Below, piece by piece: positions 22,465 to 62,807 of a stretch of DNA of 64,000 nt (its first letter is position 1; each line of letters opens with the position of its first letter). The stretch lies in contig QZIR01000010.1 in the NCBI GenBank assembly GCA_003604975.1, forward strand, positions 1 to 64,000. Reading direction: 5' to 3'. The DNA comes from Desulforudis sp. (GTDB lineage: Bacteria > Bacillota > Desulfotomaculia > Desulfotomaculales > Desulforudaceae). The notes under the pieces are model-generated. The model was given only the letters and a program-made list of their open reading frames with translations. It was not told the origin of the DNA and made no database searches. The translations under genes and the position numbers were made by a program.

Positions 22465-22683
22465 TCACTTGGTCAAGGTGAGCACCCACTCCTCACCCCG
22501 GTCCTCGACCTGCACTGTCCAGCCCTGGCTGGTCGCCAGGCGCTTGATGTTTTCACGCGCAGCCTCCGAGTCAGCGATGGCGACAACCTTACCCTTGCCC
22601 TGGGCTTCGATCTGTCTTTTGACCATCAGCATCGGCTCGGGACAGCCAAGACCCCGGCAATCGACCGTGTTGTTATTAGGCAC
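22465..22683 (-). CDS. yedF: YedF/TusA-like sulfurtransferase
   Basis: TusA/SirA-fold protein of 72 residues with the conserved CRGLGCPEPML motif at its N-terminus, where the first Cys can carry persulfide or selenium. YedF typically accompanies YedE. GTG at 22683 overlaps the yedE stop (GTGCCTAA), so translation is coupled, with GGAGG about 10 nt upstream. It is the last gene of the leftward tRNA-yedE-yedF unit. Confidence 0.93.
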   Translation of the reverse strand: MPNNNTVDCRGLGCPEPMLMVKRQIEAQGKGKVVAIADSEAARENIKRLATSQGWTVQVEDRGEEWVLTLTK

Positions 22684-23758
22684 TCTCAGTCACCCTCCCT
22701 TGCTGCAGTACTCTAGCTCCGGACAAGGCGAAACCGATGACTAGAACCACAGCCAACCCCGCCATGACGGCGACCTGCCCGTTCACCGAAACCCCTGCCG
22801 GACTGGCGGCAAGTCCAAAGTTGTGGGCGGTGGCGGCACCGAGCAGAATCCCAAAGAGCGTTACGGCCGAGTCGGTATTGCCTTCAGAAGCCGAGATCAT
22901 CTGGCGTAGCGGACACCCGGCGATCAGGGTGAAGCAGAGCCCGCCCAAGGCCATCCCCAGGAAATTCCACAGGCCGTCAGTATGGGCGATCGGTTGGTTC
23001 TCAAAGCCTAGGGTAAAGTTCCCGAGCGCCAGGTTACCAACTAGCGCGGCCACAAAAACACCGACCATTCCGAACATCAGGTAGGGGTCGCGGAACATAA
23101 TCAGGTCGCGGACGGGACCGATCAGGCACATCCGTGTACGCTGCGCCAGAGCACCCACCACGAGTCCGGCCCCGAGGGAGATCAGGAGAGGGGCGCGCAT
23201 CGCGCCGGGACCTTCGGAGCTGTATAGGAAAATGGTTGAGTTAAAGAGCAGAAAGATCAGCAGGACCAAAAAGATCAGCGGAAACACGTAGCCGTGAGCC
23301 GAGTTCTGACGGTTTACCCGTCCCAATGTAAAACCACGGTTAATAAACCAAATCCCGATCAGGATACCCACCACCAGACCGACCAGACCGACCCAGGCGT
23401 TAAGGTCTCCGGCGGACATCCGGAGGAGCATCCGCAGCGGGCAGCCCAGGAAGACCAACAGGCCGATCATGCCGATAAATCCGAGGACAAACCTGGTGAG
23501 GGTACTGGAACCGCCCACGGAGCGATAGGATTTCGTAGCCAGGGCCGCAATGAAGGCTCCGAGAATAATCCCGGGGATCTCCGGCCTTACATACTGTAGC
23601 TTGGCCGCACTGTGCAACCCAAGTCCACCCGCGATATCGCGTAGAAAACAGGCAATGCACATTCCCATATTGGGCGGGTTGCCGGTTGCCATCAGGATTA
23701 TGGCCAGCGCACCGACCGTAAGCCCGGTCAAAGCAATAAGTCCTTTCCCTTTAAACAT
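22676..23758 (-). CDS. yedE: YedE/YeeE family membrane transporter (sulfur or selenium)
   Basis: Polytopic protein of 360 residues, two homologous halves. Each half has a Cys/Arg loop: MCIACFLRD with FLGCPLRM in the first, and TRMCLIGPVRD with AGCPLRQM in the second. Related YeeE conducts thiosulfate, and the YedE branch is associated with selenium-utilising genomes. The ATG at 23758 is chosen because GAGGTG lies 6 nt upstream; an in-frame GTG three codons earlier overlaps that site. Its leader contains the unusual tRNA at 23786-23878 on the same strand. Confidence 0.93.
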   Translation of the reverse strand: MFKGKGLIALTGLTVGALAIILMATGNPPNMGMCIACFLRDIAGGLGLHSAAKLQYVRPEIPGIILGAFIAALATKSYRSVGGSSTLTRFVLGFIGMIGLLVFLGCPLRMLLRMSAGDLNAWVGLVGLVVGILIGIWFINRGFTLGRVNRQNSAHGYVFPLIFLVLLIFLLFNSTIFLYSSEGPGAMRAPLLISLGAGLVVGALAQRTRMCLIGPVRDLIMFRDPYLMFGMVGVFVAALVGNLALGNFTLGFENQPIAHTDGLWNFLGMALGGLCFTLIAGCPLRQMISASEGNTDSAVTLFGILLGAATAHNFGLAASPAGVSVNGQVAVMAGLAVVLVIGFALSGARVLQQGRVTESA

Positions 23759-23785
23759 TGGATTCACCTCATCACACTTTTAAAA

Positions 23786-23878
23786 TGGAGGAGGGAAGTG
23801 GGAATCGAACGCCACCCCCGCCTTGCGGCATGGCCAACGGATTTGCATTCCGCGGGGAGCACCAGCTCCGTTCCCTCC
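23786..23878 (-). tRNA. tRNA with GCA (Cys) anticodon on a tRNA-Sec-like body
   Basis: Read on the minus strand from 23878. The acceptor GGAGGGAA pairs with TTCCCTCC over 8 bp, followed by discriminator T (23789) and an encoded CCA (23788-23786). The D arm is GGAGC/GCTCC with a 4-nt loop TGGT. The anticodon stem GCGGA/TCCGT closes loop ATGCAAA, anticodon GCA at 23846-23844. A long variable arm contains GCC-GCAA-GGC. The T loop is TTCGATT; its stem GTGG-G/CCCAC carries one bulged C (23811). A normal tRNA-Cys has a 7-bp acceptor, larger D loop and short variable region. The 8-bp acceptor, tiny D loop and long arm are tRNA-Sec traits, whereas GCA and U73 are CysRS identity elements. It lies 27 nt before yedE. 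Confidence 0.85.
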
Positions 23879-24001
23879 ATAGTCAAATCCACAGTGCCGG
23901 AACCATCACCTCCTCTACCCGCTATCTCCCTACAGAAGATCCTATTTCTCGCAGTTCACATAAGAATCCTTTATTAGACTGATTAAATAATGTTATAGCT
24001 A

Positions 24002-24044
24002 GGGGCGAAGATAGACCCTCTGCGAGGACGCAGTGGTCTTCCCC
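24002..24044. repeat. hairpin element 1 of the repeat cluster
   Basis: Interrupted inverted repeat, GGGGCGAAGATAGACC (24002-24017) against GGTCTTCCCC (24035-24044). It contains the 14-bp direct repeat CCCTCTGCGAGGAC (24016-24029), which recurs at 24091-24104. Confidence 0.6.
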
Positions 24045-24070
24045 GGTTTACACTAGAAGACTACAACCAT

Positions 24071-24115
24071 GGAGAACGCTCAGAAACGAGCCCTCTGCGA
24101 GGACAGGCGTTCTCC
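24071..24115. repeat. hairpin element 2 of the repeat cluster
   Basis: GGAGAACGC (24071-24079) is the perfect inverse of GCGTTCTCC (24107-24115). The end sequence GGAGAACGCTCAGAA is a variant of the family-A end GGAGAGCGCTCAGAA seen at 24149 and 56965. It includes the second CCCTCTGCGAGGAC copy. Confidence 0.6.
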
Positions 24116-24148
24116 TCTCAGTACCTCCCGCTTGAAGGCTACCAGTAT

Positions 24149-24289
24149 GGAGAGCGCTCAGAAGCAAGCGGGGCCCAGCACTCAACGTGCCTTCTGCTAA
24201 GTCGACTCTATGTCCCAACAGGATATTTTTAATGACCCGTATGTCTTTGGATCTCGGCTTGAGTGCTGGGTAGCTTATCAGCGCTCTCC
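24149..24289. repeat. family-A palindromic element, 141 bp
   Basis: Ends are GGAGAGCGCTCAGAAGCAAG (24149 rightward) and, inverted from 24289, GGAGAGCGCTGATAAGC. Inner arms CCCAGCACTCAA (24174-24185) and TTGAGTGCTGGG (24259-24270) pair perfectly. It overlaps the last codons of the lysR gene and supplies its stop codon. The same two end types recur, in the other orientation, at 56878-56965. Confidence 0.7.
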
Positions 24290-25171
24290 TCTTAGTACGA
24301 AGTCCAGGAAGGCCTGGGTGGGGCGGGTGACGACGCGGTCACGGGCATAGATCAGGTAGAGGCTACGCCTAATGGAGAGGTTCTTCACACGGATGGTCCA
24401 GACCTTGTCCAGTTCCTCGGCCCGCTGCACGGACCAGCGTGAAACGAAGGACAATCCCAGGCCAGCCTCCACGGCGGCGAGTACCGCTTCGGTACTCCCG
24501 AACTCGCCAGCGGTCCGGAACACGTCTGGGGGTATATTGTTCTGCCTCAGACTCTCCTCAATGATCCGCCTGGTCCCCGACTGTTTTTCACGTGAAACCA
24601 TTCGTTGGCCGATCAAGTCGGAAGGGCTCACTTCCATCCGGTCGGCGAAAGGATGGCCCACTGGCACGGCCAGTACAATCTCGTCCTCGGCGAAAGCCTG
24701 GCAGGCGATGCCCTCATCCTCAACCGGGGCGCCGACCGCCCCGATGTGGATGGCGTTCTCGCGCAACCGGCCGGTGATCTTTCCGGTGTTGGCGATCTCC
24801 AGGGAGACCTTCACTTCGGGGTACCGTGCGGCGAATCGGCCGAGCAGGGGAGGCAGGACATAGTGACCGGGGATGGTGCTGGCGCCGATATTCAGGCTGC
24901 CCTTGATTTCACCGGTAAAGGAACGGACGTCCTCGTAGGCACGGCCCATGGTGTCCGCCATTTGGAGGGCGTAGTTGTACAGCACCTGGCCGGCGTCGGT
25001 CAGTTCGACCCGGCGACTGGTACGGCTGACCAACTGGATGCCGTAGTGCTGCTCCAGAAGCGAGATGTGCTTACTGACCGCGGGCTGGGTAAGGTTTAGG
25101 TTCTGCGCGGCGCGAGAGAAGCTCTGGTACCGGGCCACGGCGATCAGGGTTTCCAGGTAGTTGAGATTCAT
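24278..25171 (-). CDS. LysR family transcriptional regulator
   Basis: Regulator of 297 residues. The N-terminal winged helix (MNLNYLETLIAVARYQSFSRAAQNL, LTQPAVSKHISLLEQ) is followed by the periplasmic-binding-like effector domain (about 90-295). It resembles the CysL/CbbR branch. ATG at 25171 is used; an in-frame GTG six codons upstream also exists and neither has a clear ribosome binding site. It is divergent from the threonine deaminase gene, a common layout for a regulator and its target. The last four codons lie in a family-A repeat. Confidence 0.92.
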   Translation of the reverse strand: MNLNYLETLIAVARYQSFSRAAQNLNLTQPAVSKHISLLEQHYGIQLVSRTSRRVELTDAGQVLYNYALQMADTMGRAYEDVRSFTGEIKGSLNIGASTIPGHYVLPPLLGRFAARYPEVKVSLEIANTGKITGRLRENAIHIGAVGAPVEDEGIACQAFAEDEIVLAVPVGHPFADRMEVSPSDLIGQRMVSREKQSGTRRIIEESLRQNNIPPDVFRTAGEFGSTEAVLAAVEAGLGLSFVSRWSVQRAEELDKVWTIRVKNLSIRRSLYLIYARDRVVTRPTQAFLDFVLRGER

Positions 25172-25266
25172 TTCTAAATTATATAACACTTAGTTATAAA
25201 TGCAAATAATCTTCGGGGTATTCTCCGGGAACCCTAAGGACAGAGCAAAATACGGCCAAAACATGG

Positions 25267-62696: not shown

Positions 62697-62727
62697 CAAA
62701 ATAAAAGCCCTACCAAGGTTGGTAGGG
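62697..62727 (-). terminator. riboswitch-controlled intrinsic terminator
   Basis: On the minus strand, CCCTACC-AACCTT-GGTAGGG (62727-62708) is followed by CTTTTATTTT. Its left arm shares the CCCTACC used by the aptamer pseudoknot, so ligand binding and termination exclude each other. Confidence 0.9.
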
Positions 62728-62772
62728 GTCATCAACCACTCTTCGTGGTAGTTGCGGCGAACCCCATCGCCG
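62721..62772 (-). ncRNA. fluoride riboswitch (crcB motif) aptamer
   Basis: On the minus strand the aptamer opens CGGCGATGGGGTTCGCCG, continues CAACT, then a stem ACCAC-GAAGA-GTGGT, and ends TGATGACCCCTACC. This matches the fluoride aptamer layout: GGCGATG helix, AACT, helix, TGATG and a pyrimidine strand pairing with the GGGG loop as a pseudoknot. The downstream terminator gives a typical fluoride-ON switch. It controls the dynamin-like gene and probably the membrane gene behind it. Confidence 0.93.
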
Positions 62773-62807
62773 CACCGGTTAACCACCGGTGTCGTACGGT
62801 TGGCTAA

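Follow-up and report, generated by a model that had tools for sequence, protein, structure and literature searches.

The window, a 64,000-nucleotide stretch of DNA from a Desulforudis-like bacterium, carries a gene for a tRNASec-like tRNACys that looks like a member of a selenium regulon. Read along the minus strand, the locus comprises in turn lysR, a candidate operator, the tRNA, yedE and a TusA-like gene (Table 1). Both the operon of tRNA, yedE and tusA and the regulon are well supported. Taken as a whole, it is probable that this is a selenium-regulon operon whose tRNA would supply cysteine in place of selenocysteine when selenium runs short, and such a fallback during shortage is the likeliest reading of the function of the tRNA. 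We establish here the anatomy of the locus, its conservation, the site that its promoter region has in common with other loci and the specificity of that site for selenium genes.

Table 1. Coordinates of the tRNA, its neighbours and the candidate operator in the window
Feature	Position	Strand	Details
tRNASec-like tRNACys (presumably the tRNA-ReC type), 93 nt	23786..23878	-	G1 at 23878, U73 at 23789
Encoded CCA of the tRNA	23788-23786	-	
8-bp acceptor stem of the tRNA	23878-23871 paired with 23797-23790	-	
GCA anticodon of the tRNA	23846-23844	-	
tRNA-yedE spacer, 27 nt	23759..23785	-	Shine-Dalgarno GAGGTG at 23770-23765
yedE, predicted selenium transporter	22676..23758	-	TIGR04112, 489.2 bits (cut-off 200)
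TusA/SirA-like sulfurtransferase, 72 aa	22465..22683	-	GTG at 22683; PF01206, 60.5 bits
Candidate selenium-regulon operator, ATAACATTATTTAATCAGTCTAATAAAGGA	23967..23996	-	88 nt 5' of the tRNA
LysR_Sec_metab regulator gene (LysR_Se)	24278..25189	-	NF040786, 277 bits (cut-off 250); 400 nt 5' of the tRNA

Standard annotation does not reveal the tRNA gene: ARAGORN called zero tRNAs over the 64-kb window, and Rfam at its gathering threshold gave nothing at the tRNA position, T-box or other riboswitch included. The sole Rfam match of gathering score in the window is a fluoride riboswitch (RF01734, 46.9 bits) at 62716-62780 on the minus strand. When the whole genome was searched with the tRNA-Sec model RF01852, the window tRNA scored 47.0 bits, equal to the family cut-off, and a true UCA tRNA-Sec with G73 was found on contig C13 at 74 bits; an ordinary tRNA-Cys also lies elsewhere in the host genome (L004). 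The D-stem of the window tRNA has 5 bp, and its anticodon stem has five pairs with two more past a bulge. The variable arm is long, and the T-stem, with five pairs and a bulged C, gives the tRNA an 8/5 plus bulge form. Its fold taken alone lacks significance (z -1.6). In an alignment of 17 relatives, 92.7% of the pairs are standard and 24 cells are compensated, compared with 8.2 in shuffles, and we conclude from these values that the tRNA is real.

This kind of tRNA is already known as the tRNASec-like tRNACys of Desulfotomaculum. The window tRNA combines a Sec-like body (8-bp acceptor, long variable arm and extended anticodon stem) with the Cys identity elements U73 and GCA, and its genome encodes both a canonical tRNA-Sec (C13) and SelB (C3, 363 bits). 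We take the name of this tRNASec-like tRNACys(GCA) type to be tRNA-ReC; a literature search for the names tRNA-ReC and tRNA-ReU was without a match. Other assignments were considered and rejected. The gene does not specify a canonical tRNA-Sec, as it has GCA and U73 rather than UCA and G73 and its RF01852 score is merely at the cut-off; an ordinary tRNA-Cys would have a 7-bp rather than an 8-bp acceptor and a short rather than a long variable arm; and the 8/4 selC* tRNACys is ruled out because the stems here have 8 + 5 pairs and the bulged base is a C, not A51a.

Relatives of the window tRNA were found by DNA search in 18 of 100 near genomes, its own included. A covariance model built from 17 of these copies was run over 113 genomes of the order, and its scores split into an upper group of 72 places in 64 genomes, all at 73.7 bits or above, and a lower group that does not exceed 64 bits; a truncated copy in G066 (L026/L153) was excluded from the counts. 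In the upper group, U73 and CCA are present at all 72 order loci, and the anticodon is GCA in 70 and ACA in two. The eight lower-group members sampled (L154-L161) are all UCA, with G73 in six and A73 in two, matching what is expected of tRNA-Sec. Because U73 and CCA hold throughout the upper group and the sampled members of the lower group are UCA, the upper group is, judged by sequence, a family with Cys identity on a Sec-like body. Base 33 is not invariably U in these 72 copies, being C in five and A in one. A search at class level drew on no genomes beyond the 113 of the order and contributed counts alone. Outside the order, a sample of 398 phylum genomes gave 13 places at 74.7 bits or above, all with U73. 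Named loci in the pattern scan include Desulfofundulus, Desulfallas, Desulfovirgula, Desulfotomaculum copahuensis and Desulforudis. The 8/4 form with a bulged A was met in Desulfofervidaceae (L042, L060, L078 and L081), a group in which selB (TIGR00475, 305 bits) lies 20-34 nt downstream of the tRNA in three loci.

GCA tRNAs of a second kind, which have long variable arms and in most cases a GGCCGGT-like acceptor, were seen in Planctomycetota, Spirochaetes and deltaproteobacteria (L044, L045, L047, L048, L055, L058, L065, L067-L071, L076, L077 and L080). Some of these tRNAs lie within selenium clusters. At L068, yedE comes first in the row, then genes resembling tusA and a cysteine desulfurase, then the tRNA, another gene that matches TusA and finally selD, and at L076 the order is activase, tRNA, yedE and tusA.

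The earlier note on this DNA placed the 3' end of the tRNA 27 nt before the yedE ATG, on one strand and with no terminator between, and the coordinates and a hairpin scan bear this out. The ATG of yedE is at 23758 and its TAA at 22678-22676, the open reading frame list beginning at an in-frame GTG at 23767. The spacer contains neither a terminator-like hairpin nor a regulatory site, and scanning found no sigma-70 promoter between tRNA and yedE, this being a weak scan that returned two hits in 3 kb where shuffles lead one to expect 1.2. Terminator-like hairpins are absent from all 23 tRNA-yedE gaps, compared with 18 of the 49 unlinked copies that have one within 150 nt (shuffles 3-6%); the three hairpins found within 150 nt of the tRNA at linked loci are all located inside yedE. 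The overlap of yedE with the following gene, as previously described, is also present and amounts to 8 nt, but the description of that gene as yedF does not stand. The protein is merely a TusA/SirA domain, which scores 54.9 bits against the YedF model TIGR03527 (cut-off 110), through the N-terminal part alone, and is without the DsrE half.

Conservation of the linkage was assessed by tblastn of the window proteins against the 71 non-own order loci, in 22 of which a same-strand yedE lies directly downstream at 23-240 nt. With the window included, the arrangement recurs at 23 of 72 order loci, in 22 genomes by a hand tally and under six family codes: f1 (eight genomes), f2, f4, f5 (five), f14 (two) and f16 (five). 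This recurrence places the tRNA-yedE linkage beyond chance. It was the repetition in relatives that the earlier note had proposed to look for; the contrary outcome that it had named, a promoter between tRNA and yedE together with unconserved linkage, did not appear, no site being found there and the linkage being conserved. TusA follows yedE in all linked loci except L082. At L118 yedE is divergent from the tRNA, and at L114 it is 2.1 kb downstream.

The two genes also occur apart. The pair yedE and tusA stands without this tRNA in 57 of the 60 non-adjacent yedE loci fetched, and the presence of the tRNA is not associated with that of yedE, which was counted by hand in 50 of 64 tRNA-bearing genomes and 38 of 49 others. 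In a tree built from 85 yedE proteins (23 linked and 62 not; the loci of G045, G088, G082 and G029, broken or at contig edges, were excluded), the adjacency label changes at least 11 times, six of these changes being forced by starred branches, and the mean in shuffles is about 20. Adjacency appears to have been maintained inside lineages and gained or lost many times. In family f16, yedE-linked second copies appear to have drifted, with an ACA anticodon (L135 and L149), a stem mismatch (L148) or a broken T-arm (L152), and the tRNA at L226 is a decayed remnant (20.5 bits) with the same ACA. With four such copies drifted and one decayed, the position before yedE is not always the home of a working tRNA.

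These observations bear on the suggestion, made in the earlier note, that the tRNA is a leader through which charging is sensed. In its general form, a tRNA or tRNA-like domain in the 5' untranslated region would sense Cys or Sec charging, or would fold so as to control yedE, and the short terminator-free distance and the repeated linkage are what such a leader would display. It is nevertheless very unlikely. There is no yedE directly downstream of 49 of the 72 order copies, yedE-tusA is usually without the tRNA, and the yedE of G041 is intact although the tRNA before it has decayed. Unlinked copies too keep U73, CCA and the cloverleaf, as a trans-acting tRNA would. The features of a T-box are lacking, with no riboswitch in the region according to Rfam and no terminator in the gap, and the regulatory-looking site, which also precedes yedE where yedE stands alone, is found 5' of the tRNA.

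That site was recognised, as an AT-rich stretch conserved ahead of the tRNA, in an alignment of eight f1 loci and in the raw upstream regions of 15 others. Gibbs sampling of the 23 linked upstreams gave the consensus ATAA-N5-TT(A/T)(A/T)AT-N7-ATA(A/G)AGG, and the candidate operator of Table 1 is the only site in the window to score 12 or more when both strands are scanned. Of the 22 linked loci other than the window, 21 reach a score of at least 14 in the region before the tRNA, an in-sample figure, and the best score across 22 tRNA-yedE junctions is 3.7. Separate motif discovery on the upstreams of the 60 non-adjacent yedE genes alone returned the same consensus and, for 22 of the 23 linked loci, pointed to the position already identified; with this yedE-only motif the window site scores 24.5 and the next best in the 64 kb 5.9.

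Out of sample, sites scoring at least 14 precede 40 of the 60 non-adjacent yedE genes (0.6% in dinucleotide shuffles), the other 20 falling below 14, and 15 of the 49 unlinked tRNAs (0 in shuffles). Nine of the 15 lie 28 nt or more from the tRNA; the other six are closer than 28 nt and may be plain promoters. At three more unlinked loci the operator stands before the gene that precedes the tRNA, namely selD (L092), hdrA-mvhD (L095) and a double-cubane reductase (L114), which leaves 31 of the 49 with no site of this score either directly or via the adjacent upstream gene. The f5 loci have a TATAAT-like hexamer within about 20 nt of the tRNA, which would place the start site at the tRNA. Among ordinary tRNAs, no operator was found at any of 37, kept from 45 after dropping eight that lie just downstream of a copy of the tRNA under study. 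Other open reading frames of at least 120 aa in the same loci have the site in 6 of 322 upstreams, namely those of hdrA and selD and of two double-cubane reductases and two activases. Beyond the order, the operator is clear at three tRNA loci (L186, 27.1; L190, 22.3; L192, 16.4); among the ten remaining loci, seven stay below 14 and three have scores of 15-17 at a distance of 13-20 nt from the tRNA.

The gap between lysR and the operator in the window is occupied by direct and inverted repeats at 24016-24289, including arms of CCCAGCACTCAA. The distance from lysR to the tRNA is 400 nt here, compared with about 110-175 nt in relatives of like gene order. The 12-mer CCCAGCACTCAA recurs in L026, where the G066 copy of the tRNA breaks off, and the repeats are perhaps a mobile element.

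An exact form of the operator pattern gave 57 matches in 39 of the 113 genomes, and the reversed pattern used as a control gave two. With two mismatches allowed, control counts equalled real ones in several genomes; the relaxed pattern being thus swamped by chance, the regulon was tallied from exact sites alone. Sites were assigned by tblastn on fetched loci or otherwise from the coordinates of yedE and the tRNA. The tally is 18 for yedE (six through this tRNA and one through a decayed remnant), one for an unlinked tRNA, 12 for selD, two for mvhD, 16 for the double-cubane reductase (three at only 37-38% identity), three for molybdopterin oxidoreductases and two for C_GCAxxG proteins, with three sites left without assignment. 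It is because 49 of the 57 exact sites precede yedE, this tRNA, selD, double-cubane reductase or mvhD that the window tRNA looks like a member of a selenium regulon. The host genome has a single exact match, and its own selD is without the operator. Exact sites before the molybdopterin oxidoreductase, C_GCAxxG and mvhD genes (L303, L316, L327, L298, L321, L325 and L328) mark these as candidates for further regulon members or for Cys substitutes of selenoproteins.

The neighbours of the tRNA are of the same kinds. It is found near double-cubane reductase and activase (L047, L066, L076, L103, L126, L127, L134, L143, L187 and L191), near selD (L092, L068 and L188, with selD directly upstream in G019) and near hdrA-mvhD (L095, L096 and L150), genes that overlap the selenium neighbourhood described in passages of Lin et al. 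2015 (PMC5322559). These associations weigh on whether an ordinary extra tRNACys has simply hitch-hiked on a convenient strong promoter, its linkage to yedE being neutral. We regard this as unlikely, even though the linkage is patchy (23 of 72 loci), some linked copies have drifted and many unlinked copies lie within tRNA arrays or before terminators. The changes of adjacency on the yedE tree are fewer than the shuffled mean; the tRNA also follows sites that stand before selD, hdrA-mvhD and double-cubane reductase; it adjoins selB in Desulfofervidaceae; and neutral linkage does not predict that its partners should be mainly selenium genes.

In f2 and in seven of the eight f1 loci, a LysR gene lies upstream on the same strand. 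Of the 113 genomes, 103 have LysR_Se and 109 have a SelB over its cut-off; both genes, like yedE, are so near to universal in the order that presence ties neither LysR_Se nor SelB to the tRNA. It is instead the gene adjacency (in f1, f2 and f17), the dyad shape of the site and the annotation, not co-occurrence, that point to LysR_Se as the most likely binder of the candidate operator. The one SelB of the host over the cut-off (C3) does not adjoin the tRNA. The host has a TGA-containing selD and a TGA-containing formate-dehydrogenase-like gene, so that targets for the re-reading of UGA exist.

The mechanism that we propose has the tRNA as the first gene of an operon with yedE and tusA. Its promoter, upstream of the tRNA, would contain a LysR-type regulator site, the likely binder being the LysR_Se protein of the adjacent upstream gene. 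Cleavage of the primary transcript on either side of the tRNA would release the free tRNA and leave a yedE-tusA mRNA whose 5' end would lie immediately before the ribosome-binding site of yedE. The regulon, which in Desulfotomaculia would also include selD, double-cubane reductase with its activase and hdrA/mvhD in varying combinations, would be turned on at low selenium, and YedE-TusA would raise or redirect the selenium supply. Charged with Cys by CysRS and borne by the single SelB, the tRNA would place Cys at SECIS-marked UGA codons, and selenoenzymes would still be produced, in a Cys form. What we infer is that the genes have a common transcript, that this is processed as described, that LysR_Se is the binder, that control runs in this direction and that the window copy decodes UGA. 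The further claim, that a LysR-type switch turns on selenium uptake, selenophosphate synthesis and a SelB-borne Cys tRNA and that the proteome-wide reading of SECIS-site UGA codons changes reversibly, with selenium status, from Sec to Cys, is put forward tentatively.

The direction of control could be the reverse, the regulon being turned on by high selenium in response to excess or toxicity, with YedE exporting selenium and the Sec-like tRNACys competing so as to limit the misuse of Sec. An export role for YedE was raised by Lin et al. 2015 (PMC5322559, in part). This is distinctly unlikely, since the yedE transcript of Methanococcus maripaludis is described as rising on selenium depletion (PMC11097638, in part) and selD under the same site fits supply better. 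A role for the tRNA outside the ribosome, in tRNA-bound chemistry such as the conversion of Cys-tRNA to Sec-tRNA by SelA and selenophosphate with selenium arriving via YedE-TusA, would suit a Sec-like body with Cys identity set beside selenium-supply genes, and also the position of selD in G019. It is most improbable: no gene for such a step was found among the loci examined, GCA rather than UCA is retained in 70 of 72 copies, and the relative in D. nigrificans inserts Cys, according to passages of a review (PMC11415595). No evidence was found for the delivery of selenium or persulfide to the tRNA, a kind of role that the earlier note had offered as an example. Its broader idea, that the tRNA and its transport and sulfurtransferase partners form one system, holds in that the arrangement is operon-like, selenium-related and conserved in its linkage; the charging-sensing leader is not supported.

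The preferred reading, a fallback tRNA within a selenium regulon, has consequences beyond this locus. Recoding tRNACys was already known by sequence and from the work on D. nigrificans, and its placement in a selenium regulon is the new part; neither the tRNA-yedE linkage nor the operator was found in a literature search, a weak negative, and both look new as far as limited searches go. With the tRNA gene behind a site common to selD and yedE, the idea of a selenium-shortage fallback becomes directly testable and, if true, it would represent a regulated, reversible change of codon meaning. The outcome also supplies a candidate LysR_Se operator and a list of regulon members, the unexplained double-cubane reductase included.

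Among known systems, the tRNASec-like tRNACys(GCA) of D. nigrificans, which we take from its name to belong to the same order as the window host, shares Cys identity (U73 and GCA) on a Sec-like body in a host that has tRNA-Sec and SelB. There, Cys is inserted at UGA through SelB (Vargas-Rodriguez et al. 2018, as described in part of the review PMC11415595); by analogy, the window copy would be charged, bind SelB and decode UGA in the same manner. Placement of the D. nigrificans tRNA in a selenium operon or regulon goes unmentioned in the passages of that review on this tRNA. The selC* tRNACys of anaerobes (Mukai et al. 2017, via passages of the review PMC7609411) is also Sec-like with U73, has GCA or UCA, 8/4 stems and a bulged A51a, and is followed by a second selB downstream in some groups. 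Its 8/4 A-bulge form is the one met in Desulfofervidaceae, whereas the window tRNA has one more T-stem pair and a bulged C, and the single SelB of its host over the cut-off does not adjoin it.

The neighbours of the window tRNA, YedE, a SirA-like partner and LysR_Se, are those described by Lin et al. 2015 (PMC5322559), in whose passages on these genes the tRNA and the operator site are not described. The same source, in the part concerned, assigns to LysR_Se the LysR-type protein HrsM of Methanococcus, which represses Cys isogenes when selenium is adequate (PMC11097638, in part). According to the same part of PMC11097638, the yedE transcript of Methanococcus increases by 5.3 log2 on selenium depletion, and deletion of yedE in M. 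maripaludis gave no clear evidence of a transport role. The likeness thus lies in LysR-type control of Cys substitutes and in the induction of yedE on selenium depletion, and the Desulforudis-like bacterium would have a single Cys tRNA under a switch like that governing the spare Cys genes of the methanogen. The difference is that HrsM switches separate Cys isogenes, whereas in the window a single Cys tRNA would suffice for every Sec codon.
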